This document shows positions 7,708-26,168 of a stretch of 64,000 bases of DNA, in pieces. Position numbers and translations under genes: made by a program. The stretch is taken from contig NZ_MXAV01000034.1 in assembly GCF_002847505.1 (NCBI RefSeq), positions 124,001 through 188,000 of the forward strand. The letters run 5' to 3'. This DNA is from Acidithiobacillus marinus. GTDB taxonomy: Bacteria > Pseudomonadota > Gammaproteobacteria > Acidithiobacillales > Acidithiobacillaceae. Numbering within the stretch: the first letter of the stretch is position 1; each line of letters opens with the position of its first letter. The notes below the pieces were generated by a model, which was not told the DNA's origin, did not search any database, and was given only the letters and a program-made list of their open reading frames with translations.

Positions 7708-7719
7708 GGAGAAAAATCA

Positions 7720-9583: not shown

Positions 9584-9606
9584 TGAATTAGGGTTTAGGA
9601 GCAGCT

Positions 9607-10326: not shown

Positions 10327-11230
10327 GGTTGCATATTATCCGGGTTGTGCGCTGGAAGGCTCTGGTGGTCCCTATGACAAATCCACCCGCGTTCTCGTCA
10401 AGGAACTCGGTTTGCAGATGGAAAATCTGGAAGACTACAATTGCTGTGGTGCCATGGAAGTGAAAAATGTTCATCCCATGCTCCAGACTTACATGTCCGC
10501 GCGGAATCTGGCTATTGCCAGTAAGTTGCAGGGCTGTGATACAGTGATGGCCCCTTGTAACGGTTGCTATCGTAACCTCAAGCAGACGGAATACGAATGT
10601 GCCACGTCTGAAGAAACCATGAAGACAGTGCAGGACCTGGCAGACAAGTCCGGTGACCCGGTTTATGAAGGTGATGTGCGTACCTTGCATGCTCTGGAAT
10701 GGTTCATGGAAGAGGTTGGCCCTGACGGGATCAAGAGCAAGGTCAAGAAGAGTCTGAACGGGCTGAAAATTGCCAATTACTATGGCTGTATGTACACCCG
10801 GCCCCGGCAGATTTTCCCGGAAAAAGACCAGGGCCCTGATTCTGAGTCTTCCTATGCACCTCACTTCATGGATGACCTGCTCAATGCAGCGGGTGCCGTT
10901 GCGGTGGACTTCCCGCTGAAAACGGCTTGCTGCGGTGGTGCCCACACTTTGTCTGATTCGGATACATCCACTCAGCTGGTATTGAATATTCTCCAGGCTG
11001 CAGAAGATGCGGGTGCTGAAGTGATCGCCACGGAATGTCCGACCTGCCATTCCGGACTGGAAATGCATCAGGTGCGTGCAGAAACCGAGTTTGGCATCAA
11101 ATCCAATGTCAAGGTCATTTACTTCACGCAATTGCTGGGTTTGGCAATGGGGCTGTCTGCACGTAAGGTCGGTATTCCCGACAACGTCAGTGACTCCATG
11201 GACTTGCTCGCGGCCAAAGGCATCGTATAA
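10319..11230 (+). CDS. shdrB2: sHdr complex catalytic subunit HdrB2
   Basis: A 303-residue HdrB protein with two intact CCG domains: C10, C42-C43, C80-x2-C83 in the first and C157, C204-C205, C240-x2-C243 in the second. In methanogen HdrB such motifs hold noncubane [4Fe-4S] clusters that act on a disulfide; in sHdr this is the likely site of sulfur handling. The start overlaps the end of hdrC2 by 8 bp. It is the last gene before a strong intrinsic terminator. Confidence 0.94.
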   Translation: MAKVAYYPGCALEGSGGPYDKSTRVLVKELGLQMENLEDYNCCGAMEVKNVHPMLQTYMSARNLAIASKLQGCDTVMAPCNGCYRNLKQTEYECATSEETMKTVQDLADKSGDPVYEGDVRTLHALEWFMEEVGPDGIKSKVKKSLNGLKIANYYGCMYTRPRQIFPEKDQGPDSESSYAPHFMDDLLNAAGAVAVDFPLKTACCGGAHTLSDSDTSTQLVLNILQAAEDAGAEVIATECPTCHSGLEMHQVRAETEFGIKSNVKVIYFTQLLGLAMGLSARKVGIPDNVSDSMDLLAAKGIV

Positions 11231-11242
11231 TAAGGTTGAAGG

Positions 11243-11269
11243 GCGCCCCGCAAAGGGGCGCTTTTTTTT
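11243..11269 (+). terminator. Intrinsic terminator after hdrB2
   Basis: GCGCCCC and GGGGCGC form a 7-bp GC stem with loop GCAAA, directly followed by eight T. It lies 12 bp after the hdrB2 stop and 27 bp before lbpA1, so it separates the hdr structural genes from the lbpA/lip genes or lets only part of the transcripts through. Confidence 0.88.
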
Positions 11270-11296
11270 ACCTGCCGCTGTCACCAGGGGGAGGCT

Positions 11297-11743
11297 ATGG
11301 AATGTAACGGATGCGAATTCCGCGCCGAATTATATTATGATCAGGAATGTCAAATCTGGGTCCGTCGTGAAGGTGATGGTACCTTGACGGTGGGAATGAC
11401 TGATATTTCGCAGTCAATTGCCGGTAAAATTCTGCACGTACGCGTGCGTCGGCCTGGCACCCGTCGTCCTGTGGGTAAGCCGGTAGCCACCATCGAAAGT
11501 GGGAAATGGGCGGGTCCGGTACCCAACGTGTTCGACTGTGTGATAGAACTCGCCAATGAAGATGTGCTAGAAGATCCCAATCTGCTGAATATTGAACCCT
11601 ATGAAGCTTGGATTGCCCGAGTCCGGCCGGTAGCTTCCGTGGACGTCGCCCTAAAAAAGCTGTCTACTGGGGATGCGGCCTTTGAGTTGTATCGGCAGCG
11701 TTGTTTGCGCGACGACATTCACTGTGAGCGAGGGATGCGATGA
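11297..11743 (+). CDS. lbpA1: Lipoate-binding protein LbpA1 (GcvH-like)
   Basis: A 148-residue glycine-cleavage H-like protein. The lipoylation site is Lys70 in IESGKWAGP. Around it are the usual TVGMTDISQSIAG and EDPNLLNIEPYEAWIARV features of the H-fold. The chain begins with a CNGC pair (C3, C6) not needed for lipoylation. The Shine-Dalgarno is GGGAGG. No glycine-cleavage genes are nearby; LbpA proteins of sHdr clusters are dedicated to sulfur oxidation, with the lipoyl arm thought to carry the substrate. It overlaps the next gene by 4 bp. Confidence 0.92.
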   Translation: MECNGCEFRAELYYDQECQIWVRREGDGTLTVGMTDISQSIAGKILHVRVRRPGTRRPVGKPVATIESGKWAGPVPNVFDCVIELANEDVLEDPNLLNIEPYEAWIARVRPVASVDVALKKLSTGDAAFELYRQRCLRDDIHCERGMR

Positions 11744-12135
11744 GTGATCATTATTTGGATGATGATAGCGAAAAATCGGTTGTGATCGTGATGACCAGTG
11801 GTCCAAGCACGGCACATCGCTGTGCCACCCCGTTTTATTTAGGTTCACTGTTGTCTTCCATGGACGCAGAGGTTAAGATTTTTTGCACCATGGAAGCTGT
11901 TAGACTCATGAAAGTGGGCGTTGCTGAAAATTTGGCCGCCATGGAAGGTGGTAAGCGCATCATCGATTTTATTCGTGATGCGAAAAATGCGGGAGCCCAG
12001 CTCTACGTGTGCAGGCCCGCACTGCCAGGCTATGAGATTGTGGCAGATGACCTGATTGATGAGGTGGATGAAGTGGCTTCAGCAGGTGATCTTGCTGATC
12101 TGATTTTATCGGTTGACCGGCTTTTGTTTTTTTAA
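11740..12135 (+). CDS. DsrE-family protein between the two lbpA genes
   Basis: A 131-residue DsrE/DsrF-like protein with cysteines C28, C49 and C91 (YVCRPALPGYE near the active region). It differs from the DsrE3A at 5130 in length and cysteine placement, so it is a separate subfamily (a DsrE3B/C-like paralogue is possible; I cannot decide). The start overlaps the lbpA1 stop (ATGA) and it sits between two lipoate-binding proteins, suggesting it loads or unloads sulfur on their lipoyl groups. That role is inference. Confidence 0.82.
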   Translation: MSDHYLDDDSEKSVVIVMTSGPSTAHRCATPFYLGSLLSSMDAEVKIFCTMEAVRLMKVGVAENLAAMEGGKRIIDFIRDAKNAGAQLYVCRPALPGYEIVADDLIDEVDEVASAGDLADLILSVDRLLFF

Positions 12136-12155
12136 TTTAAAACCTGAAGGAGAAA

Positions 12156-12596
12156 ATGATGGGAACTGTACGTGGCTGTGAAATCCCCGAAGATTTGATG
12201 TACAACGTCGAAAACAATGTGTGGCTACGCAAGGAAGATGACGGTAGCGTTACCATCGGTATGACATCTTACGCCTGTGCTCTTGCCGGCCAAATTGTTT
12301 CCTATACCCCCAAGAGCGCCGGTAAGGACATCAAAAAAGACAAATCTGCCGCCACAGTAGAATCTGGTAAATGGGTAGGTCCTCTGAAGAGTCCAGTGAG
12401 TGGCACCGTGGTTTCCAGCAATGATGAAGTGGCTAAAGACCCGGGTTTGATCAACAAGGATCCTTACGGAAGCGGCTGGATTGCCAAGCTGACCCCGGCG
12501 GATTTTGCCGGTGATTCTGCTGAGCTGAAGACCGGTGCAGATGCACTCTCGGCTTTTGAAGAAAAAATGACGGCTGATGGTTTTGGTGGCTGCTGA
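12156..12596 (+). CDS. lbpA2: Lipoate-binding protein LbpA2 (GcvH-like)
   Basis: A 146-residue GcvH-like protein with the lipoyl lysine at K72 in VESGKWVGP. The H-protein features VTIGMTSYACALAG and DPGLINKDPYGSGWIAKL are clear. It is closer to the classical H-protein than LbpA1, which looks more derived. The start may be the first or second of two adjacent ATGs; AAGGAGA precedes them. It is followed by a GC-rich hairpin. Confidence 0.93.
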   Translation: MMGTVRGCEIPEDLMYNVENNVWLRKEDDGSVTIGMTSYACALAGQIVSYTPKSAGKDIKKDKSAATVESGKWVGPLKSPVSGTVVSSNDEVAKDPGLINKDPYGSGWIAKLTPADFAGDSAELKTGADALSAFEEKMTADGFGGC

Positions 12597-12646: not shown

Positions 12647-12682
12647 AGCTTTCTCCACGTATGACTAAGGATGGAAATTAAT

Positions 12683-13804
12683 ATGAACCCATGGTTAAAC
12701 GCTGTTTCGCAAGTGGAAGCATTGGAAGATCTGACACTCAACCCAGATCTGGTCGAGTCCATGCGGGAACGGTGGTCCGGTCTCTCTGGCAGCCAAGTGG
12801 GTCGTATCAATTTCTATACGCCTTCTTTTAAGCACCACGAAACTTCTGAGGTGTCTGCCTGTGGGAAAAATGCGTTTCCGGCCATCTCCATCACCGGCGG
12901 TGACTGCAAATTGCAGTGCGATCACTGCAAGGCCAAAATCCTGGAGCCGATGATTCCGGTACGCAGTCCTGAAGAGCTGGATCGTCTGGTGGATCAGATT
13001 GTGCTGGATGGTGGGCGTGGACTGCTGCTTTCCGGAGGTTCCGACCATCAGAATGTCGTGCATTACGAGCCTTATTTTCCGATGGTTCGAAAGATCAAGG
13101 ATCGTTATCCCAATTTGCAGATCGCCATGCATACAGGCATAGCCACTCCGGAATTTGCCCGGGGCATGGAAGATGCGGGTGTGGATGTGGCCATGATGGA
13201 TGTCATCGGTGCTCAAGATACCATCAACCAGGTCTATCACCTGCGCCGCAGCGTTGATGATTTCGAAGCCGCTCTCGAAGCCTTGGTGGCTACCAGCATG
13301 AAAGTGGTTCCCCATATTGTCATCGGTTTGCATTATGGTGAACTGTTGGGTGAATGGAATTCGTTGGAAATCATTCAGCGCCATCTGCCCAGTGCCCTGG
13401 TGCTGGTGGTCATCATGCCCCAGTATGCGTCTTCCAGCAGACCTTTTGCGACGCCACATACGGATGAAGTTGGAAAATTTTTCATGGATGCCCGTGCTGC
13501 CCTCCCGGAAACTCCGGTATTGCTGGGCTGCGCCCGGCCTTCCGGTGTGCATCGTTCCATTACCGATACCTACGCAGTGATGGCTGGTCTCAATGGCGTC
13601 GCATTTCCCTCTGATGGGATGTTGGCCCTGGCCAAGCATTTGGAGCGGGATGTGTTCGTCACTCCGTCCTGTTGCTCCATGATTGTGGGTGAGGAAGTAC
13701 TCAGTATGGGTGACGAGTCAACGACCATGCCCCTCGATTTCGTCCCGGCCGCCCCCAAACGGCGCACGCAGTTGCGGGATATTCCCATCGTGTTTTCTGC
13801 TTGA
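12683..13804 (+). CDS. lipS1: Lipoyl synthase-like radical SAM protein LipS1
   Basis: A 373-residue radical SAM protein; counted from ATG 12683 the cluster motif is C75-x3-C79-x2-C82 (CKLQCDHC). In sHdr organisms sulfur insertion into octanoyl-LbpA is done by a pair of radical SAM proteins, LipS1 and LipS2, instead of LipA. This gene and the one at 16019 flank the ligase and LipT and fit that pair. An in-frame ATG at 12671 overlaps the Shine-Dalgarno AAGGA, so 12683 is preferred. Which of the two inserts which sulfur atom cannot be read from sequence. Confidence 0.87.
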   Translation: MNPWLNAVSQVEALEDLTLNPDLVESMRERWSGLSGSQVGRINFYTPSFKHHETSEVSACGKNAFPAISITGGDCKLQCDHCKAKILEPMIPVRSPEELDRLVDQIVLDGGRGLLLSGGSDHQNVVHYEPYFPMVRKIKDRYPNLQIAMHTGIATPEFARGMEDAGVDVAMMDVIGAQDTINQVYHLRRSVDDFEAALEALVATSMKVVPHIVIGLHYGELLGEWNSLEIIQRHLPSALVLVVIMPQYASSSRPFATPHTDEVGKFFMDARAALPETPVLLGCARPSGVHRSITDTYAVMAGLNGVAFPSDGMLALAKHLERDVFVTPSCCSMIVGEEVLSMGDESTTMPLDFVPAAPKRRTQLRDIPIVFSA

Positions 13805-13856
13805 AAATGGCACAAACAGCAATGATTCGCTACGGTTGCTACAGGTCTTGGCAGGC

Positions 13857-14936
13857 ATGAATCAGGTCTCGCAAGGCTCCTGGCTGGTGGTTGATTCTGG
13901 GCTGCGTCCTGCGGACGAGAACATGGCGCTGGATAAAGCCCTGCTTGAAGCCATGGCCGAGCATGACATTACCGGTGTTTGCGGTGTGTTTCGTTTCCTT
14001 CGCTTTGAAGAATCGGCTCTGGTGGGATATCACCAGTCTCCTGATCAGGAATTGAATCTGGATTTTTGTTGCGAACAAGGCATCGCCGTCCAGCGACGTT
14101 TGACCGGTGGCGGAGCATTGATATTTGATCCCACCCAGATTGGTTGGGAGCTGGTCTGTCATCGTGATGCCCTGCCCAAGGGGGACATGGCCGCACTTTC
14201 TCGTGAAATTTGTCTGGCAGCAGCAGCAGGATTATCGACTCTGGGCGTTAAAGCTTCCTTCCGTCCGCGCAATGATATTGAAGTAGAAGGGAAAAAAATT
14301 TCCGGAACCGGTGGCATCATGGATGGGGACATCTTGCTGTTTCAGGGCACGGTGCTGGTGGATCTGGATATTCCCAGAATGTTGCGCGTGCTGCGGGTGC
14401 CATTGGAAAAACTGGATGCGCATGCTATTTCTTCCGTCGCAGAACGTGTCACCAGTCTCAAGGCACTTCTCGGAAAAGCGCCGGCATTGTCGCAAGTACA
14501 GGAAGCCCTGTTGGAAGGCTTCCGCCAACATCTGGGATTGGATTTTGAAAAGGGTGATATGCCCGAGTCCGTGATGGCGCTCTACCCGGCGATGTTGGAG
14601 GAAATCCGCGATCCGGAATGGATCAATATCAATAGCAGAATGCAAGCTGACATGCCATTACGCAAAGCTTCCTTGCGTGCTCCGGGCGGCACCTTGCAGG
14701 CAGAAATGCTCTGGGACAGTTTCGGCAGTCGGATCCGGCAGGTCCATTTTAGTGGGGATTACTTTATTCAGCCGCGGCGCGCCATCGTCGATATGGAAGC
14801 TGCTTTGCGCAATGTTCACTTGAACGAAGTAGAGACCATTCTGGCAGATATTTTTGAAAAACAGCAAATAGACGGTTTTGGTTTGCAAGCGAAAGATTTT
14901 GCCAGTGTATTAAGACAGGCAGCGGAGCAAGCATGA
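13857..14936 (+). CDS. slpl: Lipoate-protein ligase sLpl(AB)
   Basis: A 359-residue biotin/lipoate ligase-family protein with RRLTGGGA (residues 80-87) and the catalytic lysine K147 in GKKISGTGG. A ~100-residue C-terminal extension looks like the LplB-type accessory domain, so large and small domains are fused, as described for sLpl(AB) of sulfur oxidisers. It attaches octanoate or lipoate to LbpA. The frame is open far upstream, but the family N-terminus matches the ATG at 13857. The stop overlaps the lipT start (ATGA). Confidence 0.9.
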   Translation: MNQVSQGSWLVVDSGLRPADENMALDKALLEAMAEHDITGVCGVFRFLRFEESALVGYHQSPDQELNLDFCCEQGIAVQRRLTGGGALIFDPTQIGWELVCHRDALPKGDMAALSREICLAAAAGLSTLGVKASFRPRNDIEVEGKKISGTGGIMDGDILLFQGTVLVDLDIPRMLRVLRVPLEKLDAHAISSVAERVTSLKALLGKAPALSQVQEALLEGFRQHLGLDFEKGDMPESVMALYPAMLEEIRDPEWININSRMQADMPLRKASLRAPGGTLQAEMLWDSFGSRIRQVHFSGDYFIQPRRAIVDMEAALRNVHLNEVETILADIFEKQQIDGFGLQAKDFASVLRQAAEQA

Positions 14937-15994
14937 CACCGCAAGCAGTCGATGTGCTGATAGTTGGTGCGGGTCCTGCGGGTGCCGCTGCCGCCCGGGC
15001 TGCGGCGGGAAAAGGCCTGCAAGTACTGTGTATCGATCGGCGTGCCCGGATCGGTTTACCTGTGCAATGTGCAGAATTCGTCCCTATGCCGCTGCTGCGG
15101 ACAGTGCACGAAACTCAATCCCGCGTGCAGGACGTTGCCGGTATGTTAACGGTACTGCCTTCGGGTTTTCAGCATCAGAGTATCTTTCCGGGCATCATGA
15201 TCGATCGTGCTTTGTTTGATCAGGGTTTGGCCGATTTGGCACAAGCTGCAGGCGCCCACATAAAAACCCGGACATCTTTTATGAGTTGGGATGGCCAGTG
15301 TGCAAGGATAAAGCTTCCCTCCGGAGAAGTGGATGAGATAGTCCCCAGAATGCTGATTGCTGCCGATGGCCCTCATAGTCCGGTGGCGGAAAATATCGGT
15401 TTGGTTCATCAGCAGGTGGTATATACCCGCCAATATACGGTACCCTTGTGTCATGAGTATGACGATACCGATATTTATCTGTCAGACGCATTTCCAGGAG
15501 GGTATGGCTGGTTGTTTCCGCGCGGTCCGGTGGCCAATCTTGGCCTGGGTGCTGACAAGCGCTTTGAGGACAACCTCAAAAAACCGCTGGAAGAACTGCA
15601 TCAGCAAATGGTGGAACGAGGAATTGTGGGTCCGGAAGTACTGAGCAGAACTGGCGGCGCCATACCCGTTGGGGGTTTGCGTTCCATGATTCATGACCAT
15701 GTACTGCTCTGTGGTGATGCAGCCGGGTTGACACATCCCATTACCGGGGCGGGTATTCCTGCAGCTGTCATCAGTGGAGAAGCTGCCGGACTCGCCGTTG
15801 CCGCTTACCTGGCTGGCGAGAACGATGCCCTGGAAAGTTATGAAGAAGACATGCAGGATCAGTTTGGACCGGCCCTGCGCCGGGCTGTGCAACGCAGAAG
15901 CTCTCTGGAAGCCGTGTGGCGCAAGCCCGCTGCCCAGGAAGATCAGGTCATGCGATCCGCCTGGATCGCTTTTGATGAATATTTTGCCGCTTAA
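14933..15994 (+). CDS. lipT: FAD-dependent oxidoreductase LipT
   Basis: A 353-residue flavoprotein of the geranylgeranyl-reductase/FixC-like family: dinucleotide motif GAGPAGAAAA near the N-terminus and the second FAD motif with LLCGDAAGLTHPITGAGIP around residues 260-280. It overlaps the ligase gene by 4 bp and is followed by lipS2. LipT-type genes recur in sHdr-linked lipoate clusters and may supply reducing power to the LipS proteins; that function is inferred from context. Confidence 0.84.
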   Translation: MTPQAVDVLIVGAGPAGAAAARAAAGKGLQVLCIDRRARIGLPVQCAEFVPMPLLRTVHETQSRVQDVAGMLTVLPSGFQHQSIFPGIMIDRALFDQGLADLAQAAGAHIKTRTSFMSWDGQCARIKLPSGEVDEIVPRMLIAADGPHSPVAENIGLVHQQVVYTRQYTVPLCHEYDDTDIYLSDAFPGGYGWLFPRGPVANLGLGADKRFEDNLKKPLEELHQQMVERGIVGPEVLSRTGGAIPVGGLRSMIHDHVLLCGDAAGLTHPITGAGIPAAVISGEAAGLAVAAYLAGENDALESYEEDMQDQFGPALRRAVQRRSSLEAVWRKPAAQEDQVMRSAWIAFDEYFAA

Positions 15995-16018
15995 GGCGGA
16001 TTGACAGGAGGAACGTCC

Positions 16019-17155
16019 ATGAGTGCGGTAGTGGAAGAAAATGCTCAGACCTTAAATTTTTATCGCCCGGATTATTTCGTCAAAACACCGACGATGCGTT
16101 CCCCGGACTACGTGCAGTTGAGTACGGCCGCAGCCATAACCTTGGGATTGATTCCCGGTGTGATGCACCGTACTTCCTGCACCAACTGCCTGAATTTGTT
16201 GATGACTTATCCGGAGGGCTGCCGTGCCAACTGCACCTACTGCGGTCTTGCCCGTCATCGTGAAGAAAGCCGGGACTATGCCGACCGCAATTTCATTCGT
16301 GTGGACTGGCCGACCGTGCGCGTCGATGAAATGCTGGAACGCATTGCCCAGAACAGCGACAAAGGTGATTTTCAGCGCATGTGCATCAGCATGATCACCC
16401 ATCCCGACTCGGACAATGACACCATGACCATGCTCAAGCGCTGGATGGAAGTCGCCCCCCATATTCCGGTATCCATTCTTTCCAACCCGACCACCATGGA
16501 AAAGCAGGATCTGATCAACCTCAAGGAAGCCGGCGCGGATATTTTCACGGTGGCCCTGGATGCGGTGACTCCGGAAATTTTTGAACGGACTCGTGGTAAA
16601 ACCGTACAAAGCCCCCATTCCTGGGATAAGTACTGGCAGGCCATTGAATGGGCCGCAGAAATTTATGGTCCTGAAAAGTTCGGTGCGCATCTGATTTGTG
16701 GCATGGGTGAAACCGAACAGGAAATTCTCCAGGTTTGCCAGAAAATGAAAGATATGGGTGGTCATAACCACATGTTTGCCTTCTTCCCGGAAAAAGGCTC
16801 CATGATGGAAGACTGGGATCCAGTTCCCCAGGATCACTGGCGCCGCGTTCAGTTGGGTCGTTTCCTCATCGATTACGCGGGCGGCCGTTACGAAGACATG
16901 CAATTTGACGAATATGGCCGGGTCCTGAATTTCGGCTATCCCGAAGCGGAGCTGGAAGACATTATCAACTCCGGCAAGCCTTTCCAGACATCCGGTTGCC
17001 CCGGCAAGGATGACGAAGAAGTCAGTGCCTGCAACCGTCCCTATGGCGATTCTTCCCCCTCGGACATTCGTTCCTTCCCCTTCGCTCTGAACAAGCAGGA
17101 CGTGGAAATCGTCCGCCGCCAGATGAAGCTGCAGGATCTGCAGTTTCCCGGTTAA
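16019..17155 (+). CDS. lipS2: Lipoyl synthase-like radical SAM protein LipS2
   Basis: A 378-residue radical SAM protein with the motif C68-x3-C72-x2-C75 (CRANCTYC) and an additional pair C54/C57 (CTNC) just before it; C-terminal cysteines (GCPGKDD...SACN) may serve an auxiliary [4Fe-4S] cluster that gives up sulfur, as in LipA. The start at ATG 16019 has an ideal AGGAGG 7 bp upstream; an earlier TTG is unlikely. It is the last gene of the lipoate-assembly group, 25 bp after lipT, and is followed by a terminator. Confidence 0.88.
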   Translation: MSAVVEENAQTLNFYRPDYFVKTPTMRSPDYVQLSTAAAITLGLIPGVMHRTSCTNCLNLLMTYPEGCRANCTYCGLARHREESRDYADRNFIRVDWPTVRVDEMLERIAQNSDKGDFQRMCISMITHPDSDNDTMTMLKRWMEVAPHIPVSILSNPTTMEKQDLINLKEAGADIFTVALDAVTPEIFERTRGKTVQSPHSWDKYWQAIEWAAEIYGPEKFGAHLICGMGETEQEILQVCQKMKDMGGHNHMFAFFPEKGSMMEDWDPVPQDHWRRVQLGRFLIDYAGGRYEDMQFDEYGRVLNFGYPEAELEDIINSGKPFQTSGCPGKDDEEVSACNRPYGDSSPSDIRSFPFALNKQDVEIVRRQMKLQDLQFPG

Positions 17156-17398: not shown

Positions 17399-18742
17399 AT
17401 GAAAAAATCACGAATTCTTGGGGTGGCAGTAGGCGCAGCTCTAGCAATGGGTATTTCCAGCAGCGCATTTGCAACGGATGGATATCAGTTGATTGGTATT
17501 GGTCAGTATGCTGTGGGTATGGGTGGAGCGGTTGTGGCTGCGCCAGACGATCCCTTGTCGGCCGCTATCAGTAACCCGGCTGGATTGGCGAATATGACTC
17601 CCCAGGCGGCCTTCTCGGCCGAAGTATTTAACCCTACCCGTAAGACGAATATGGGTAGTGGAGAAATAGGAAGTCATAGTAATATTTATGGGATTCCTGC
17701 GATTGGTTGGGTAGCCCCGGCTTTTGGAGACGGTATTGTTTTTGGTGGTGGCGTTTATGGTACTTCTGGTTTGGGTGTAAACTATATCCAGCCTGGTGCA
17801 GTGGGACCTGCTTATCAATTTGCCAAGAATGGTAAATTACAGAATCCCTCGCCCACCCTGACTTCTGGTGTAGCACAAGCATACAGTAGTATCACTTTTA
17901 TTCAGATGGCTCCCTCCATTGCCATGAAAGTGAATAGCCATCTTTCTGTTGGTGCATCTTTGAATATTGCCGCCGAACAAGGATCTTTCCAACAAACCTT
18001 TACTCCTAATCAAAACTTTGCAAAAGGGGATTTGTATGAAGGTGGTGGCTTGAACTTGTCGACTCCGTCTTGGGCATATGGGGTGGGTGTGACTTTAGGT
18101 GCGCTTTATAAAGTTAATAATATGGTGACCTTGGGCGCTACTTATAAATCACCCATGATTTTTACACCGTTAACATTTCAGGCGGGGGCTCAGGCCGCAC
18201 AGCTTCCAAACGGACAACCAGTCCAAGGCACTGCTGGACAGTATAGTGGTCATTTAAACTATCCCCAGCAAATCGCGCTGGGCATTGCTATTCGACCCAT
18301 CCGGCAATGGTTGGTGAGTGTCGAAGGACAATGGATTAATTGGCATAATACCCTCAATACATTTAACATTCACGGCCCTTGGCAGGGAACCAACGTGGTT
18401 CCGCTCGGACTGCATTGGCACAATCAGTTTGTGGCAAACTTCGGTACTCAGTACAATGTCAATGATTGGCTACAAGTGCGTGCCGGTTATACTTGGAGCT
18501 CAAACCCCATTGATAACAAGGATGCGGCTGCCAACACGATTTTCCCGGCGGTAGTTCAGAATACTATCACCTTCGGTTCTACGCAGAAGCTGGGTATGGG
18601 TTGGAAATTGACAGAAGCGTATATGCATGCCTTTGCTAACACTATCACAGGACCGGCAGGTACCGCGCCTTTTGGAATGGAAACACCCACTTCCACCTTG
18701 GCCGAAAATTCCTTCGGTTTGCAAGTCGGCTACGACTTCTAA
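17399..18742 (+). CDS. FadL/TodX-type outer-membrane transport protein
   Basis: A 447-residue outer-membrane beta-barrel protein. Signal peptide residues 1-25 (cleavage after SSAFA), then the family's N-terminal hatch region with ISNPAGLA, and a C-terminal strand ending in the aromatic residue of VGYDF. FadL-family proteins take up hydrophobic molecules. Ribosome-binding site GGAGGA. It stands as a single gene with its own promoter and terminator directly behind the sHdr/lip region and is visibly AT-richer than its neighbours. A role in bringing hydrophobic sulfur (S8 or polymeric sulfur) across the outer membrane is attractive but only inference; fatty acids or aromatics are the known substrates. 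Confidence 0.86.
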   Translation: MKKSRILGVAVGAALAMGISSSAFATDGYQLIGIGQYAVGMGGAVVAAPDDPLSAAISNPAGLANMTPQAAFSAEVFNPTRKTNMGSGEIGSHSNIYGIPAIGWVAPAFGDGIVFGGGVYGTSGLGVNYIQPGAVGPAYQFAKNGKLQNPSPTLTSGVAQAYSSITFIQMAPSIAMKVNSHLSVGASLNIAAEQGSFQQTFTPNQNFAKGDLYEGGGLNLSTPSWAYGVGVTLGALYKVNNMVTLGATYKSPMIFTPLTFQAGAQAAQLPNGQPVQGTAGQYSGHLNYPQQIALGIAIRPIRQWLVSVEGQWINWHNTLNTFNIHGPWQGTNVVPLGLHWHNQFVANFGTQYNVNDWLQVRAGYTWSSNPIDNKDAAANTIFPAVVQNTITFGSTQKLGMGWKLTEAYMHAFANTITGPAGTAPFGMETPTSTLAENSFGLQVGYDF

Positions 18743-18765: not shown

Positions 18766-18792
18766 GGGAGACGGGCAACCGTCTCCCTTTTT
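18766..18792 (+). terminator. Intrinsic terminator after the FadL-type gene
   Basis: GGGAGACGG-GCAA-CCGTCTCCC, a perfect 9-bp stem with five T behind it, 24 bp after the stop. Confidence 0.92.
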
Positions 18793-18919: not shown

Positions 18920-19324
18920 ATGAAGTCCATACCGATTACCGATGTCAGCAGTCTCAAAAATGAATTGAATAAATACAAGATGGGGAAAAAGCTGGAAATT
19001 CCCCGTTTCAACCAGTTGGCCAGAATGGCGTATATGGGGCGTCTGGTCATGACTCCGCTGGATCCGGAAGATCCGGCCTGCAAGTCTTTTCTGGTCCATG
19101 TCCAGGAGCCTTTGGGTCTAGCGGCACATTTTATCGAGCTGGATGAGGATTTGCAGGATACCATCCTCATTCTCGATAGTGAGCAGTCCATGGCCATGGC
19201 GGGTATCATGCAGGCGGGGGTGGAAGAGCGGGTGCGTTGGCATGAAGCCCTCAATGAGCGGGATTTCTATTTCTCCGCCTTTTACCGGCCCAAGGATAAG
19301 GAAAGCCGGGAAGAGAACGCCTGA
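18920..19324 (+). CDS. Hypothetical protein next to the second lipoate-ligase-like gene
   Basis: A 134-residue soluble protein that I do not recognise; no cysteine motif, signal peptide or membrane segment (one cysteine in the chain). It starts with ATG behind CAAGGAA and lies 50 bp before the lipoate-ligase-like gene, same strand. The window's other lipoate genes are 1.7 kb upstream, so a link with lipoyl metabolism or sulfur oxidation is possible but unproven. Confidence 0.7.
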   Translation: MKSIPITDVSSLKNELNKYKMGKKLEIPRFNQLARMAYMGRLVMTPLDPEDPACKSFLVHVQEPLGLAAHFIELDEDLQDTILILDSEQSMAMAGIMQAGVEERVRWHEALNERDFYFSAFYRPKDKESREENA

Positions 19325-19373
19325 GATGATGCTGTGCAGTGTCGCTCTTGTCCCACCAGGGCAATACTGAAAA

Positions 19374-20381
19374 GTGCAGTTACGGGTTATTTCCCTGGGG
19401 GTGTTGCCCCCGGAGTTGCTGCACAAAACCTATATGGGCCTGGCAGAAGCACAGAAAGATGATGATCCGCCTGTTCTGCTGCTGGTCCAGTCTGAGCCTC
19501 ACCTGAGTCTGGGAGCGGCTCAATCCGCTAGTGCCGAGCTGGATCACAGGGCCTGCGCTAACCTGGGCATACCCGTATTGCAAAGAGCGCTGGGTGGTGG
19601 TCTGGTCTGGGTAGATAGTGGTCAGCTCAACTATTTTTTTATTTTCCCGATGGCCCTGGGCATACGTCGCGGCCCCGAACTTTTTGCACGCACGGCCCCC
19701 TGGATAGTAGCCTTGCACGCCCGCTTCGGACTGCAGATTGAAGCCCGTGATGGTCATGATTTTTGGTGTGCGAGCCAAAAAATCGGCGGGACAGGGGCGG
19801 CGACCATTGGCCGAAGCCTGGTCATGGGCGGCAGTTTGATGCTCCATGTGGACTGGAAACCGTTTGTAAATTGCGTGGCCGCACCCTCGGCAGGTTTCCG
19901 CGCATGGCTGGCCGAAGCCTTGCAGGATAGTCTGTGGACCTGGTCGCGCCTGCTGCCGCAGGTGCCATCCGTAGAAGATATCCGCAACACTTTTCCGGAA
20001 GTGCTGGAATCTGGCGATATCCAGGTGACCCGCGTCGCAACCTTGAAGCCGGCAGAGCAGCAGGCTGTGACGGCTGCCGAATTAGAGGAGCCGGAATGGG
20101 AGATGCCAGCCAGCAGGAGGGTTCCCGCTGGCATCAAAATCAAGGCCGGGGCGTTTTTGACGGAAAGGCAATGGCCGGATGGGTCCTGGTTGCGCATCTG
20201 GACAGAAAATGGTGGCTTCCGGAAGGTGGCGGCCTCTGTCTGGTCAGAAAATCAGTGCCGGGTATTCACCGGGTTACGAGCAGAGTCTCAGGAAATGACC
20301 CGCGCCTTGCAAGAGCTGGCAGGCGAAGCATGTGCACAATGGTCCGCGCGTTTTGCTGAAACGGCCGTCTGGAAAGACTGA
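19374..20381 (+). CDS. Divergent lipoate-protein ligase/octanoyltransferase-like protein
   Basis: A 335-residue protein with lipoate-ligase-fold motifs: RALGGGLVWVDSGQ (residues 71-84) in place of RR-x-GGG, and SQKIGGTGA with Lys136 at the catalytic position. The C-terminal ~120 residues are not a clear LplB domain. Its motifs differ from those of sLpl at 13857, so it is not a recent duplicate. It starts with GTG at 19374; no ATG is better placed. It could be an amidotransferase moving octanoyl or lipoyl groups between carriers, or a ligase for another E2/H-type protein. Confidence 0.78.
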   Translation: MQLRVISLGVLPPELLHKTYMGLAEAQKDDDPPVLLLVQSEPHLSLGAAQSASAELDHRACANLGIPVLQRALGGGLVWVDSGQLNYFFIFPMALGIRRGPELFARTAPWIVALHARFGLQIEARDGHDFWCASQKIGGTGAATIGRSLVMGGSLMLHVDWKPFVNCVAAPSAGFRAWLAEALQDSLWTWSRLLPQVPSVEDIRNTFPEVLESGDIQVTRVATLKPAEQQAVTAAELEEPEWEMPASRRVPAGIKIKAGAFLTERQWPDGSWLRIWTENGGFRKVAASVWSENQCRVFTGLRAESQEMTRALQELAGEACAQWSARFAETAVWKD

Positions 20382-20407
20382 AATCCACAATCACAGGAGA
20401 TGGTTTC

Positions 20408-20785
20408 ATGCCCAGTATTGAAGAACGGATGCGCAAGCGTTTCATTTTGATGAATAGTGACGCTGTCTTGCGGCAAGCGGTGGCAAAGGCTATTCCGGAA
20501 AAATGGGAAATGACTGAAGCGACCGATCTGGAAGCTTTTGAGGAATGGCAGGAAATTCTCCTACATCGTTTTATGTTGCTGAATCTGGAAGATCCGCAGA
20601 TCAGTGATCCGGTAGAGTTGATTGATCAGATTCGCCGCGAATACCAGTTGAATATTCCCATCTTTTGTTTGGGAGGCAGTCGGGAGATAAGGGATCAGGC
20701 CCGTTCAGCCCGGGCTGACCGGTTTTTTGATCGGGAAGAGGGCCTGCAAAGACTGCCGGAGTTTTTTCAGCAGTTTGCCTGGTGA
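20408..20785 (+). CDS. CheY-like pseudo-receiver protein
   Basis: A 125-residue protein with the alternating strand/helix layout of a response-regulator receiver: FILMNSD at strand 1, RFMLLNLEDP at strand 3, IPIFCLGG at strand 4. At the usual phosphorylation site (strand 3, normally LLD) an Asn is present, so phosphorylation is unlikely. It follows the lipoate-ligase-like gene at 26 bp with AGGAGATGG before the ATG. The receiver assignment rests on pattern only; it may be an unrelated flavodoxin-like fold. Confidence 0.55.
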   Translation: MPSIEERMRKRFILMNSDAVLRQAVAKAIPEKWEMTEATDLEAFEEWQEILLHRFMLLNLEDPQISDPVELIDQIRREYQLNIPIFCLGGSREIRDQARSARADRFFDREEGLQRLPEFFQQFAW

Positions 20786-20787
20786 AT

Positions 20788-20817
20788 AGCGCCGCTACTG
20801 GATGACCAGGCGGCGCT
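20788..20817. terminator. Long hairpin between convergent genes
   Basis: AGCGCCGC-TA-CTGG-ATGA-CCAG-GCGGCGCT: a 12-bp stem with a 2-nt bulge, exactly between two convergent genes. No T-run on either side, so termination would need help from Rho or be inefficient. Confidence 0.45.
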
Positions 20818-20842
20818 GGATGTTACAGTGAAGCTGGATGAT

Positions 20843-21163
20843 TCAGCCGACCTTGGCGTGGGCTTCGGTATCAAGCAGCAGATCGTGACTTTCGCTCTGG
20901 CCATCAGCAGTGACGGTCAGGGTGGCGATGCGGATGCCGGCATCCTTGAAGGTGACTTCATAAGAAAAAATGCCCGGCAGTTCCAGGGTGCTTTCTTTCA
21001 GGGTCTTGCCTTCGCAGGTGACGCTGATCTTGGCGCTGCCCTGACCTTCGAGCATGGCCTGAATCCGGAAAGGATGGCCGACGACGCGGCGATAAACCTG
21101 GGGGTCGCGGTTGGCGTTATATTGCAGGTTGTTCAGTTTGACCATCTTGACGAGTTTGCTCAT
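20843..21163 (-). CDS. Small beta-rich hypothetical protein (SoxZ/Ig-like fold possible)
   Basis: A 106-residue protein with alternating hydrophobic/polar stretches typical of a beta-sandwich (FRIQAMLEG, AKISVTCEG, FSYEVTF, ATLTVTADG). The general shape recalls SoxZ, but the sequence match is weak and no soxY is near. No signal peptide, so it would act in the cytoplasm. Ribosome-binding site AAGGGG. It is divergent from the AAA+/VWA gene run and convergent with the pseudo-receiver gene. Confidence 0.65.
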   Translation of the reverse strand: MSKLVKMVKLNNLQYNANRDPQVYRRVVGHPFRIQAMLEGQGSAKISVTCEGKTLKESTLELPGIFSYEVTFKDAGIRIATLTVTADGQSESHDLLLDTEAHAKVG

Positions 21164-21285
21164 GGTTGCCCCTTATTAATCACACTATAAAATGAATTAT
21201 ACACGCATTTAGCTAAAACTCTTTTATCCTAGACGAAAATCTCCCGGAGTGGTAGCGGGTTTCACCGAAAAACCGATCAGGAGTG

Positions 21286-21684
21286 ATGATGACCGAGTCA
21301 AATGATTTGATTGCAGCACTGGATGCTGTTCATGCCCGCATCGAAAAGCTGGCCAAACAGCAGAGCGATGGCATGCCTTTGTCGGAATTGCTGGCAGCAG
21401 GTATTGCCGAAGCCGAAACCATGCTACGGATCATGCTGGAAACCGAGCATAAGCCCTATGCCAGTGATGCTGATCTGCTGGCATTGTGGAAAACCCTGGT
21501 GAAGGGCAAACCGCACTGGAATACCATTCGCGATAATTGTCGTGAACTGGTTTACTACCAGAACTGTCTGAAAGCAGAGCGCCAGGATGCTTTGCCTGCC
21601 CAGCCTGAGCGTATGGTGATCCATACCCTGCGCCACATTTTTTTGTATTTACGTAGCCATGCCGAACAACATCAAGAGGGTTGA
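21286..21684 (+). CDS. Hypothetical helical protein upstream of the cbbQ-like gene
   Basis: About 132 residues, almost all predicted helix, with no motif I recognise. Two adjacent ATGs (21286, 21289) and an in-frame GTG before them are possible starts; CAGGAG lies just upstream. It ends 3 bp before the cbbQ-like gene and so is part of that operon, perhaps as a partner or adaptor of the AAA+ machine. Confidence 0.72.
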   Translation: MMTESNDLIAALDAVHARIEKLAKQQSDGMPLSELLAAGIAEAETMLRIMLETEHKPYASDADLLALWKTLVKGKPHWNTIRDNCRELVYYQNCLKAERQDALPAQPERMVIHTLRHIFLYLRSHAEQHQEG

Positions 21685-21687
21685 GTA

Positions 21688-22485
21688 ATGAGTGAAATGA
21701 TCATCGAAGAACCTTTTTACCAGCCCGTAGCCAATGAAGTCGGGGTATTTATGGCGGCCTGGAGCCGGCGTTTGCCGGTGATGCTCAAGGGGCCGACGGG
21801 TTGCGGCAAGACCCGCTTTCTGGAGCACATGGCCTGGCGCCTGAAAAGACCGCTGATTACCGTTGCCTGTCACGAAGATCTGACCAGCTCGGATCTGGTC
21901 GGGCGTTTTCTCATCGAAGGCGACGCCACGGTCTGGCAGGACGGCCCGCTGACCAAGGCGGTGCGCGAAGGTGCCATCTGCTATCTGGATGAAATTGTCG
22001 AAGCGCGGACGGATACCACGGTGGTCATCCACCCGCTGACCGATCATCGTCGCCATCTGCCCATCGAAAAGCTGGGCACGGAAATCAATGCCCATCCCGA
22101 TTTCATGTTGGTCATTTCCTACAATCCGGGTTATCAGACGGTGCTGAAAGATCTCAAGCCTTCTACCAAACAGCGTTTTGTGGGTATGAATTTCACCTAT
22201 CCGCCGGGGGAAGTGGAAACCCGCATTGTCATGAAAGAAGCCGGGCTGGATGAGTCCCGTTCCAAGGCGCTGGTAGCGGCGGCAGACAAGGCCCGCAATC
22301 TGAAGGATCAGGGCTTGCAGGAAGTGACTTCGACGCGAGCGCTGATTTATGCCGGGGCGCTGATGGTGGCAGGTCTGGAGCCGCTGGAAGCCTGTACCAT
22401 GGCCATCATCAATCCTCAGACCGATGACCCGGAACTGAGTGAGGCCCTGCTGGAAATATTCCGGACCTTCTTCCCCGAACGCTAA
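21688..22485 (+). CDS. cbbQ: CbbQ/NorQ-type AAA+ ATPase
   Basis: A 265-residue MoxR-class AAA+ ATPase of the CbbQ/NirQ/NorQ family: Walker A GPTGCGKT (residues 35-42), Walker B LDE with D101-E102, and the CbbQ signature NPGYQ...LKPSTKQRF around residues 151-165. CbbQ works with CbbO as a RuBisCO activase; NorQ works with NorD on nitric oxide reductase. No RuBisCO, carboxysome or nor gene is in the window, so the target is open. The gene is followed at 9 bp by its VWA partner. Confidence 0.9.
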
Positions 22486-22494
22486 GGAGCTTTC

Positions 22495-24990
22495 ATGTCG
22501 GAAGCGACCGAAGAAATCCTCGAGCATCTGGCGGCCATCAGTTTTGTGGCCGGACGCGATGCCCGCGACGCCTTGCCTGCGGTGACGCCTCTGGGTGAAA
22601 GCGCCTGTCTGCAGTTTCTGGAAACCGGCAGAGATCTGTTTTTTTATGATCGGGAAGCCGGGAAAGCCTGTTTTCATGCCACGGCGACCATGGTGGCGGC
22701 CTTTGGTGGACTGGACCCCTGGCTGGAACAGGCCCGCCAGTTTCTCACCCAGCGCGGTACCTTCAGGGCGGTGGTGGGCTTTTTTCAGCAGGCGGCGACG
22801 GTCCGGAGCAACTGGGGTGCCGAGGGTGAGGCCTTGTGGTTCCGCCTCGGTGCAGCCTGGATTGATCGTCATGTGGACAGTGCTGCGGCGTATTTCCGGA
22901 TGCCGGTGCAGATCCTCTTTGGGGAGCAGGGCACAGCCGGGCTGGAAGCCCTGTTACAGCCCGCCGAAAGTCTCGCCAAGGGCCGCCTCGGGCTGGGAAC
23001 TTATCTGGATGGGGCCATCAAGGTGCGCGGCATTTGCGGGCTGGATGGTGTGGAGGAATGGGCACGGCGGGGTGCTGATGTGCTGGCGGCCGGACGCATA
23101 AGGGGTGAAGCCTGGTTTCGGCTGGAAAGTGACGAGGCCCGGGGTTTTCTGCTGGAGGTGCTACCCGGTTTCCGCATGGGTACTCACAAGCGCCTCTTTG
23201 GCCTACTGTTACAGGCCTGGACGGGCTTGCACCTGCCTCTGGAAGAGGGCGACTGGAGTCTGGAAGGGGGGCGCAGTTTTCTGGAGACGGACGGTCGCAG
23301 TCTTTTTGTGCCGGCCGTCATGCCCGATCGGGAAGAAGCACTGCTGGCCTTTTATCATACCGGTGCGCATCTGGCTTTTGACAGTTACGAGCAGGACGCC
23401 ATTCACGCCCTTTTTGCGGAAATAGGGATGGAGCATCCCCCTCTGGATCCCGATCAGCGCATTACCTGGCGACCGCTTTTTGCCCAGTTTGGCGAGGACT
23501 TGATCCGCTTCCAGATGCTTTTTGATCTCTGCGAAGATTTGCGGGTAGATACCGCCCTGGATCGGGAAATGCCGGGCTATATTTCCCGGGTTTTGCAGGC
23601 CGCGCGCAAGCATGGACTGCCTGAGGGTGTGGCCGCCGCCTACTATGAGCAGGCCCTGCAGCATCTGGAAGATTACCAGCAGAGCCGCCTGGCCCCGGAA
23701 CTGGCAGCGTTGACCCATCCTGAAGCTGGGATTGTGGATGCTTTTCGGGTGGCTCTGGGCCTGTATGCGACGACAACGCTGCCGCCTTTGACACTGGTGG
23801 AACGCGCCCGCGCCTATCTTCCCGGTCATTCGCCCAATGCCGCACGTCCGGTTTATCCCCGGCAAAAGCGCGGCAGTGAGGCTCCGGAAATGGATGGAGA
23901 CAGCGCGCTAGGGGCGGCAGGGCATCAGGAAAAGCCCAAGGAAGCGCCGCAATCGGCTGAAGGGAATGACCCGGATATGGAAATTCCGCCGGAAGACATT
24001 CAGGGTACCGGTGGTCGGGTAGGCGTGGGCATTCCTCTGCCGGCCAAGGTCGCGGGCAGCGGTCGCGGGGTCAAAGGCCCCAAGGGCGGCTGGCCTTACC
24101 GAGAATGGGATTATCGCCATCAGCAGTACAAAATGGATTGGGCGCGGGTACATGAACGCAAGCTGCGTGAACAGGACGAAGCCAAGGCCATCGAAATAGC
24201 CGCAGAGTATGATGGCACCCTGCGCCGCCTCAAGCGCGCCCTGCAAGCGCAGAAGCCAACGCGGATGGCACCGCGCCGTCGTCAGTATGAAGGGGAGGAA
24301 CCGGATCTGGAGGCTGCGGTCCAGTTTCTTATCGAAAAACGCGCCGGACGTTCACCCAAGGCCAGCGTATATTTGCAGCGCCGCCCTCAGCAGCGGGACA
24401 CCGCCGTGCTGCTGTTGGCTGACTTGTCGACCTCCATCATGGCCGAAGCCGGGGACTCCGGGGTGCGGGTAGTGGATCGCCTGCGCGCCGCCATGCTGCT
24501 CTTTGGCGAGGCCTTGCTGGAAGTGGGCGACCCTTTCGCGGTCTATGGTTTTGCCAGCAAGTATCATGATGAGGTGCTGATGTATCCCATCAAACGCTTT
24601 GCCGACAAGTTTGATGCCCGGGCCAGAGCCATACTGGGAGGCTTGTCTGGACGTCTGGCGACGCGCATGGGGGCAGCCATCCGCCATAGTACCCGCTTGA
24701 TGTTGCGCAGCCCCGCCCAACGACGCTTGTTGCTGATTCTTTCGGACGGGCGACCGGCGGATTATGACGACGGCGGCGATCCGCGCTATTTGCAGGAAGA
24801 TACCCGCATGGCCGTGCGCGAGGCTCTGGAATTGGGTATTCACGCCTTTTGTATCAGTCTGGATCCCCAGGGTGGGGAATACCTGCCCCAGGTGTTCGGG
24901 CAGGGGCATTTCCTGGTCCTCCCCCATCTTGATAGTCTCCCGGCGCGCTTGCCGGAGGTCTATCTGCGCCTGCGGGGGCATGGCGGATGA
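22495..24990 (+). CDS. cbbO: CbbO/NorD-type von Willebrand factor A protein
   Basis: An 831-residue protein with a C-terminal VWA domain. The metal-ion-dependent adhesion site DLSTS starts at D643 and is followed by the usual LRAAMLLFGEAL and LILSDGRPADYDDG segments. The N-terminal ~430 residues are helical and CbbO-like, then comes a low-complexity Pro/Gly linker (residues ~460-530). It is the adaptor partner of the AAA+ ATPase just before it; the VWA site binds an acidic residue of the target. The stop overlaps the next start (ATGA). Confidence 0.9.
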   Translation: MSEATEEILEHLAAISFVAGRDARDALPAVTPLGESACLQFLETGRDLFFYDREAGKACFHATATMVAAFGGLDPWLEQARQFLTQRGTFRAVVGFFQQAATVRSNWGAEGEALWFRLGAAWIDRHVDSAAAYFRMPVQILFGEQGTAGLEALLQPAESLAKGRLGLGTYLDGAIKVRGICGLDGVEEWARRGADVLAAGRIRGEAWFRLESDEARGFLLEVLPGFRMGTHKRLFGLLLQAWTGLHLPLEEGDWSLEGGRSFLETDGRSLFVPAVMPDREEALLAFYHTGAHLAFDSYEQDAIHALFAEIGMEHPPLDPDQRITWRPLFAQFGEDLIRFQMLFDLCEDLRVDTALDREMPGYISRVLQAARKHGLPEGVAAAYYEQALQHLEDYQQSRLAPELAALTHPEAGIVDAFRVALGLYATTTLPPLTLVERARAYLPGHSPNAARPVYPRQKRGSEAPEMDGDSALGAAGHQEKPKEAPQSAEGNDPDMEIPPEDIQGTGGRVGVGIPLPAKVAGSGRGVKGPKGGWPYREWDYRHQQYKMDWARVHERKLREQDEAKAIEIAAEYDGTLRRLKRALQAQKPTRMAPRRRQYEGEEPDLEAAVQFLIEKRAGRSPKASVYLQRRPQQRDTAVLLLADLSTSIMAEAGDSGVRVVDRLRAAMLLFGEALLEVGDPFAVYGFASKYHDEVLMYPIKRFADKFDARARAILGGLSGRLATRMGAAIRHSTRLMLRSPAQRRLLLILSDGRPADYDDGGDPRYLQEDTRMAVREALELGIHAFCISLDPQGGEYLPQVFGQGHFLVLPHLDSLPARLPEVYLRLRGHGG

Positions 24991-26168
24991 ATGAAAAACA
25001 GCTCTTGCACCCCCAAATTGCCGCGACCCGTCCGGCCCGTTTTGTGGGTGCCGCCCGCTATCGGCGTGCCAGCTACGGCAGCAATCATCCCCTGGCCATT
25101 CCCCGTGTTTCCCTGACCCTGGATCTGATCAATGCTTACGGTGCCATGGCGCCCGAGGAATATTGTCTGGGCCGACCGGCCAGTCATCAGGAACTGTTCG
25201 GATTTCACACCCGCGATTACATTCAGGCCTTTGAGCGTGCTCAGTTTCGCGGCAATGTGCGTGATGCCGACCGCAAACAATATCAATTAGGGACGCTTGA
25301 AAATCCCTGTTTCCCCGGCTTTTTTGATACCCCCAATCTGGCTACAGGTTCCAGTATCCTTGGCGCGGAGTTGGTATTGCAGGGTTTCACCGCCTTCAGT
25401 CCGGCAGGGGGGATGCATCATGCTGCTCCCGCTCAGGCGCGGGGCTTCTGCTACCTGAATGATCCGGTGCTAGCCATTCAGCGCCTGCGCAAGGCGGGGC
25501 TGCGGGTACTCTACTGGGACATGGACGCCCATCATGGCGACGGTGTTGAGGCGGCTTTCCGGGAAGATCCCGATACTCTCACGGTTTCCCTGCACATGGA
25601 CACGACTTATGCCTATCCCTTTCAGGGAGGTGGGTTGGATGACCAGGAAGGCCTGGCCGTGAATCTTCCCCTGCCGATGGAAATCAATGACACGGAATAT
25701 GCCCACGTTTTCGCTGCACTTTGGCCCAAGGTCCTGCAGCAGTTTGCACCTGACGTGCTGGTTCTTCAGGCTGGTACGGATATTTTATCGCCGGATCCCT
25801 TGAGCAAATTCCGCATATCCAATAGCCTGTTCTGGAACATTGTTCAGAGAATTGTCGCCGAAAGCCCGCGTTTGCTGGTATTGGGCGGGGGAGGGTATCA
25901 TCCCATTGCCCTGGCCCGTTGCTGGACCGGCGTCTGGGCGGCCCTGTCGGGACGCACTCTGGATATGGCCCTGCCCGAAGCCGGTCGAGCCCTGCTGGAA
26001 GCGGTGGAATGGGATCTGGATGATGAAGATGCGCCGGATTACAGCCGCCAGTTCCAGTATCTGGATGATCTGCCCTTGCCAGGTCCGCTCCGTCCGGAAG
26101 TGATAGCGCGTCTGGATTATCTCTTTCATCATCATCCTCTTTTTGCCAACAGGAGAAATGCTGCGTGA
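24987..26168 (+). CDS. Histone-deacetylase-family (AcuC/HDAC-like) amidohydrolase
   Basis: A 393-residue arginase-fold deacetylase. Active-site His pair H144-H145 in GGMHHA, GFCYLND at 153-159, zinc ligands in DMDAHHGDG (D180, H182), and a later aspartate in QAGTDILSPDPL. All key residues are present, so an active zinc deacetylase (acetyl-lysine, acetylpolyamine or other amide) is expected in the cytoplasm. Its start overlaps the cbbO-like stop and its own stop overlaps the next GTG start, so it is translationally coupled to both neighbours. Confidence 0.9.
   Translation: MNEKQLLHPQIAATRPARFVGAARYRRASYGSNHPLAIPRVSLTLDLINAYGAMAPEEYCLGRPASHQELFGFHTRDYIQAFERAQFRGNVRDADRKQYQLGTLENPCFPGFFDTPNLATGSSILGAELVLQGFTAFSPAGGMHHAAPAQARGFCYLNDPVLAIQRLRKAGLRVLYWDMDAHHGDGVEAAFREDPDTLTVSLHMDTTYAYPFQGGGLDDQEGLAVNLPLPMEINDTEYAHVFAALWPKVLQQFAPDVLVLQAGTDILSPDPLSKFRISNSLFWNIVQRIVAESPRLLVLGGGGYHPIALARCWTGVWAALSGRTLDMALPEAGRALLEAVEWDLDDEDAPDYSRQFQYLDDLPLPGPLRPEVIARLDYLFHHHPLFANRRNAA

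Follow-up and report, generated by a model that had tools for sequence, protein, structure and literature searches.

The sHdr system is a widespread route of sulfur oxidation that depends on lipoic acid. In the LipM, LipL and LipB transferases, the catalytic role falls to a cysteine. According to the accessible part of one previous study, a single Thioalkalivibrio sLpl(AB), the lipoate-protein ligase of sHdr, makes lipoyl-AMP, modifies LbpA1 as well as LbpA2 in vitro and has no octanoyltransferase activity; in Thermoplasma acidophilum, the LplB partner of the ligase is a separate protein (PMC6067878). In Hyphomicrobium, deletion of sLpl(AB) blocks the modification of LbpA2; the accessible part of that report names lipX and lipY in published clusters, the latter as a putative fatty acid transporter gene, and neither a second ligase nor the genes that we call hyp134 and rec125 were seen there (PMC10332631). 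With one sLpl(AB) able to modify both carriers in vitro, the need for another ligase is not obvious, so that the second ligase-like protein described here, LplA2, must have a different task or act under different conditions. No description of a hyp134-LplA2-rec125 module was found in the accessible parts of the literature searched (including PMC6335251, PMC10531304, PMC2754497, PMC6382920, PMC7082400 and PMC12423496), where a mere gene listing in supplements or subscription papers is possible.

The window, i.e., the whole stretch of 64,000 nucleotides that was analysed, comes from a 2.9 Mb genome, and Acidithiobacillus montserratensis GG1-14 is the nearest named relative among the genomes compared (92% in LplA2). 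The three open reading frames of the original prediction were recovered at their places and lengths, all on the forward strand, and the two LbpA genes said to be near LplA2 are both present upstream (Table 1). The forward strand carries, in order, the sHdr genes with lbpA1, a dsrE-like gene and lbpA2, then the lipoylation genes, the FadL-type gene and the trio. Behind the trio are min105 on the other strand, SMALL140, and the CbbQ-like and CbbO-like genes. Only 49 bases separate hyp134 from LplA2, and 26 bases separate LplA2 from rec125. The terminator-like hairpin between FadL and hyp134 is suggestive of a trio that begins its own transcription unit, while such hairpins are barely commoner in the region (seven sites) than in shuffled sequence (5.0 +/- 2.5).

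Table 1. Features of the window in and around the hyp134-LplA2-rec125 module
Feature	Position	Strand	Remarks
Part of sHdr operon	6364-12596	+	includes lbpA1 (11297-11743) and lbpA2 (12156-12596)
lipS1, sLpl(AB), lipT, lipS2	12671-17155	+	known LbpA lipoylation genes
sLpl(AB)	about 13803-14936	+	upstream of the trio
FadL-type outer membrane protein gene (FadL/LipY)	17399-18742	+	
Terminator-like hairpin	18766-18787	+	3' of the FadL/LipY gene, before hyp134
hyp134	18920-19324	+	134 aa; without Pfam, NCBIfam or PDB family; best module marker
LplA2	19374-20381	+	335 aa, GTG start; divergent lipoate-ligase fold; K136, D129 and R71-xx-GGG present
rec125	20408-20785	+	125 aa, receiver-like; presumed phospho-Asp position is Asn/Ser in this genus
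min105	20843-21163	-	about 105 aa, no assigned function; convergent with rec125
SMALL140	21283-21684	+	133 aa, no assigned function
CbbQ-like MoxR-type AAA+ ATPase	21688-22485	+	
CbbO-like partner	22495-24990	+	831 aa
Histone-deacetylase-family protein	24987-26168		Pfam 3.9e-67; directly after the CbbO-like gene

LplA2 is present in 26 of 27 Acidithiobacillales genomes, the source genome included, and the single miss (G020) is 71% complete; none of the 13 other genomes of the class that were searched contains it. In these 26 loci, rec125 always lies downstream and hyp134 lies upstream in 25, the remaining locus (L018) ending too early. The hyp134 profile matched 22 of 369 Gammaproteobacteria, 21 of them at 141.9 bits or more, and the last match (G374, 17.7 bits) was dropped from the count. 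Among the 21 genomes, 16 hold the trio in order, four (G131, G215, G231, G319) have hyp134 and rec125 adjacent without LplA2 between them, and in one (G360) the locus is cut by the contig end and LplA2 starts another contig. These proportions indicate that the core consists of hyp134 and rec125, which LplA2 usually joins as the third member. That several bacterial orders and families have conserved the trio with its gene order is far beyond chance, and the trio is not an oddity of Acidithiobacillus. The module stands directly after the lip genes or FadL in many genomes; it is joined to the sHdr-lip cluster in loci L165, L167, L171, L172, L174, L175, L178 and L179, and separate from it in others, e.g. 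L164, L170, L176, L177 and L180. Upstream ORFs of about 330 aa, seen in some loci, are of two kinds: a secreted-looking protein of about 315 aa between FadL and hyp134 (L170 8027-8971, L180 8125-9078, L174 and L176), which is absent from the window, and opposite-strand ORFs, which were taken for antisense. A search of plasmid records gave no match for hyp134; LplA2 matched just two lipoate ligases there, both distant and both from Vescimonas.

Where LplA2 is missing from the slot, a solo LplA2-like paralogue was found at another place in the genome (four of four genomes, one of the paralogues being weak). The LplA-like gene of G231, a long-branch solo paralogue, lies near a third LbpA/GcvH-like carrier gene and away from the sHdr operon (L155 8107-8556, 9371-10393); this extra carrier is LbpA1-like at 43%. 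That LbpA1 itself had moved beside the solo ligase was considered and rejected, because LbpA1 sits in the sHdr operon (74%). In the single-contig genome G131 (L156, L148), an sHdr operon with LbpA1 and LbpA2 is found with no LipS1, sLpl(AB), LipT or LipS2 beside it. The genome search revealed no LipS1 in G131, and the solo LplA2 paralogue, which adjoins a gene read as fumarase, is the only LplA-like gene found in it.

The original prediction regarded the set as a possible accessory part of the sHdr system, a view that would have suffered had the module occurred mainly in genomes without sHdr or LbpA. The opposite was observed. The window sHdrB2 matches 77 of the 369 Gammaproteobacteria, 21 of them at 79-100% identity; G192 follows at 63%, and none of the others exceeds 36%. 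With sHdrB2 counted at 79% or above, both genes occur in 20 genomes, hyp134 only in one, sHdrB2 only in one and neither in 347 (Fisher p 8e-31, from a test that treats genomes as independent, which related genomes are not). Leaving out Acidithiobacillales, the order that trained the profile, gave 16, 1, 1 and 347 (p 8e-26, with the same caveat on independence). Non-independence is partly countered by paired absences inside two genera, in which sister genomes either have or lack hyp134 and sHdrB2 together (G181 has both and G291 neither; G172 has both and G378, which is 88% complete, neither). The genome with hyp134 only is G360, which is 75% complete, and the genome with sHdrB2 only is G345, which has sHdr with LbpA1. 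LipS1 is a looser partner of hyp134 (both 18, hyp134 only 3, LipS1 only 8, neither 340); for this count, 26 genomes with model matches of at least 184 bits were kept and 19 at 60.5 bits or less were dropped, the curated cut-off of 230 bits being reached by none, the window's own LipS1 included.

In a 398-genome sample of the phylum, hyp134 was found only in the source genome (G000) and G392. G392 belongs to another class and has sHdrB2 (68%) with LbpA1 and LbpA2; its hyp134 (40%) sits on a different contig, has neither LplA2 nor rec125 close by, and lies near genes whose translations read as rnf and mobA. Neither LplA2 nor hyp134 was matched in G394 and G439, which lie outside Gammaproteobacteria and have sHdrB2 at 63%. 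The testable sHdr loci with LbpA1 number 21 (20 from Gammaproteobacteria, where G215 was left out because a contig end cuts its locus, plus G392), and 20 of them are in hyp134 genomes, with G345 as the exception. The LbpA2-only sHdr loci (G192, G394, G439) are all three in genomes without the module. These three negatives from few lineages give a hint that the module is tied to sHdr with LbpA1 and LbpA2, so that the earlier emphasis on two LbpA proteins gained some support. Taken together, the co-occurrence across lineages, extending to G392 outside the class, strongly supports an accessory part of the sHdr system, and co-occurrence and synteny indicate that the module is an accessory operon, probably for sHdr of the LbpA1+LbpA2 type.

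LplA2 matches the Pfam LplA-B_cat domain (E 6.4e-27) as well as lipoate ligases in the PDB, and its predicted model is confident (pLDDT 94.1). The best structural match is T. acidophilum LplA (Z 25.8, rmsd 2.4-2.6, 225-226 aligned residues). The catalytic Lys and the RRxxGGG core of LplA-type ligases are present in the window protein with Gln (Q70) for the first Arg. The original prediction had described altered motifs around a kept catalytic lysine. Its K136, RALGGG (R71-A72-L73-G74-G75-G76) and SQK (S134-Q135-K136) are as described; the variation is confined to the first Arg and the residues preceding K136, whereas R71 and GGG are shared with known ligases and invariant (37/37 LplA2, 12/12 sLpl(AB), 8/8 solo paralogues). 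The lysine is kept, together with D129, in 33 of the 37 LplA2 proteins including that of the window, but is replaced in the other four (L021, L023, L024, L025), all members of one genus, by K136R with D129E. Within this genus, LplA2 dN/dS is 0.13-0.32 (three pairs, two with near-saturated dS), which indicates that the protein is kept under purifying selection, and the sLpl(AB) readable in one of these genomes retains both K and D.

A phylogeny of 43 proteins groups 23 trio LplA2, taken from the 37 aligned, in one clade (100/100) and 12 sLpl(AB) in another (100/100); eight solo paralogues fall between the two and are not one group. LplA2 thus lies outside the sLpl(AB) of sHdr, and its profile scores sLpl(AB) at about 42-85 bits versus at least 169 for trio members. 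H43 is invariant in the 37 trio LplA2, and H43 and F164 are specific to LplA2 relative to sLpl(AB). The LplB model matches sLpl(AB) (1.6e-9) but not LplA2, whose C-terminal part still aligns and folds. In all 36 pairs of nine genomes, LplA2 shows lower conservation than sLpl(AB), the mean difference being 14.6 points. A biotin ligase, which would have undermined the original prediction, is unlikely: no NCBIfam biotin-ligase model matched LplA2 at E 0.1, and biotin ligases reach only Z 11-12.5 against the LplA2 model.

No Pfam, NCBIfam or PDB family was found for hyp134. Its model is of middling quality (pLDDT 72.8, pTM 0.59), and a Foldseek search with it returned nothing at E 0.001, which does not show a new fold. 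Mean column identity in Acidithiobacillales is 87% for hyp134, 77% for rec125 and 63% for LplA2. Both flanking genes of the original prediction, the 134-residue protein and the pseudo-receiver, are real, and the receiver-like nature of rec125 appears weak but consistent: its profile matches response regulator 3lte (E 0.0094), and Pfam Response_reg is matched by one of 26 members, at 0.11. At the positions that we equate with the receiver phosphorylation site, the window protein has Asn for phospho-Asp and no Lys-Pro segment, and thus lacks the D-D-T-K site. The presumed phospho-Asp is Asn or Ser in Acidithiobacillus and Asp in most other families.

Of the 17 loci retrieved from outside Acidithiobacillales, 14 have min105 beside the module (two of the others being cut by contig ends), nine have SMALL140 and eight the CbbQ/CbbO-like genes, the latter also where sHdr is unlinked. 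Full-length relatives of the CbbO-like protein (49-100%) occur in 17 of the 21 hyp134 genomes. In 59 further genomes tested, which have weak HdrB2 matches or LipS1 only and so are not a random draw, there was none, and the matches were no more than partial (about 31-41%). The protein is named CbbO-like from our reading of it and because its gene follows that of a CbbQ-type ATPase; it had no match among Pfam and NCBIfam models. A SMALL140 homologue (34%) lies between hdrB2 and lbpA2 in the LbpA2-only sHdr operons of G394 and G439. The SMALL140-like proteins encoded there (L193 2988-3407 and L194 10987-11406) share a CRELVY motif. The restriction of the CbbO-like gene to hyp134 genomes among those tested and the SMALL140 homologue in sHdr operons suggest that the ATPase pair may serve sHdr too, possibly as a dedicated ATPase machine.

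Being nearly restricted to bacteria with sHdr, hyp134, LplA2 and rec125 are probably undescribed helper parts of the sHdr machine. The explanation that we favour, with modest confidence, is an accessory operon of LbpA1+LbpA2-type sHdr in which LplA2 would bind an LbpA, perhaps LbpA1, and act on the lipoyl or octanoyl group by Lys-dependent lipoate-protein-ligase chemistry. Its job would be distinct from that of sLpl(AB), e.g., charging or re-charging LbpA1. As the most constant member, hyp134 is probably an adaptor that brings LplA2 to the carrier or the sHdr complex, and rec125 may be a receiver-like switch or scaffold. A bolder and rather doubtful extension takes everything from hyp134 to the CbbO-like gene (18920-24990) as an ATP-driven maintenance machine for two-carrier sHdr, a counterpart in sulfur oxidation of Rubisco activase or NorQD. 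LplA2 and hyp134 would charge or reset LbpA1, rec125 would gate, and the CbbQ/CbbO-like pair with SMALL140 would remodel or reactivate the sHdr complex.

An enzymatic LplA2 must be weighed against a catalytically dispensable pseudo-ligase, which would recognise lipoyl-LbpA by its fold and serve the hyp134-rec125 complex as a docking or sensing subunit. A pure scaffold is favoured by the K136R genus, where the altered protein is nevertheless under purifying selection; the faster evolution of LplA2 than of sLpl(AB), the unrecognised LplB-like part and the persistence of hyp134-rec125 without LplA2 in the slot point the same way. Most of these observations, together with the G345 exception, also count against the explanation favoured above. 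Yet K and D are retained in most members and R71-GGG in all, and an enzymatic role is favoured by the solo ligase-like paralogues of the four slot-less genomes and the extra LbpA1-like gene in G231; the pseudo-ligase is therefore possible but not probable. The original prediction, a lipoyl/octanoyl amidotransferase or editing factor moving the group between carriers, fits a module that tracks sHdr clusters with both LbpA1 and LbpA2, where a single ligase already serves both in vitro according to the accessible part of PMC6067878. It has a small probability, and its known Cys-dependent kind was rejected, since no cysteine both conserved and specific to LplA2 was found among the 37 aligned proteins: the best positions are C61 (34/37), C167 (23/37) and C132 (19/37), and C61 is shared with all 12 sLpl(AB), of which the tested homologue has no transferase activity.

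The LplA fold and motifs would also suit a second scavenging ligase for central metabolism (PDH, OGDH, GcvH), but LplA2 is linked to sHdr and to two partners of no assigned function, and the trio was seen only in sHdr genomes, which leaves this reading very improbable. Least probable is a role of the module in CO2 fixation (Rubisco activation) or general autotrophy, with its link to sHdr arising only from the presence of both in sulfur autotrophs. The CbbQ/CbbO-like genes adjoin the module in the window and in nearly half of the other fetched loci, even with sHdr unlinked. However, in the genomes tested, whose negatives were non-random, the full-length CbbO-like gene was seen only alongside hyp134 and so is tied to the module itself; on this ground the autotrophy explanation was rejected. 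In addition, four hyp134 genomes have no full-length CbbO-like gene, hyp134 was seen in no autotroph without sHdr among the 369 genomes, and the three other cbbQO sets of A. ferrooxidans all lie in rubisco clusters, according to the accessible part of PMC4660213.

The module supplies concrete candidates for the missing parts of sHdr carrier charging, turnover and regulation. With hyp134 as a marker gene, the split between LbpA1+LbpA2 and LbpA2-only systems becomes testable.

Compared with known systems, LplA2 resembles the sHdr-specific ligase sLpl(AB) (Cao 2018, Tanabe 2023) in fold family, Lys136/Asp129/GGG and gene neighbourhood, but differs in its separate clade, in the invariant H43 and F164 found only in LplA2, and in the LplB-type part, which is not recognised. 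The T. acidophilum LplA structures (2ars, 2art, 3r07) come closest to it in structure (Z 25.3-25.8, with 225-238 residues aligned), although identity is only 17-18%. The superfamily fold is also common to the LipM, LipL and LipB octanoyl- and amidotransferases (LipB structures, Z 17-20), whose catalytic Cys has no conserved LplA2-specific counterpart. Likewise, rec125 is similar to response-regulator receivers at the profile level, but in the 3lte alignment it has no Lys-Pro segment and carries Gly-Gly at the presumed Thr/Ser position, with Asn or Ser replacing the phospho-Asp in Acidithiobacillus.
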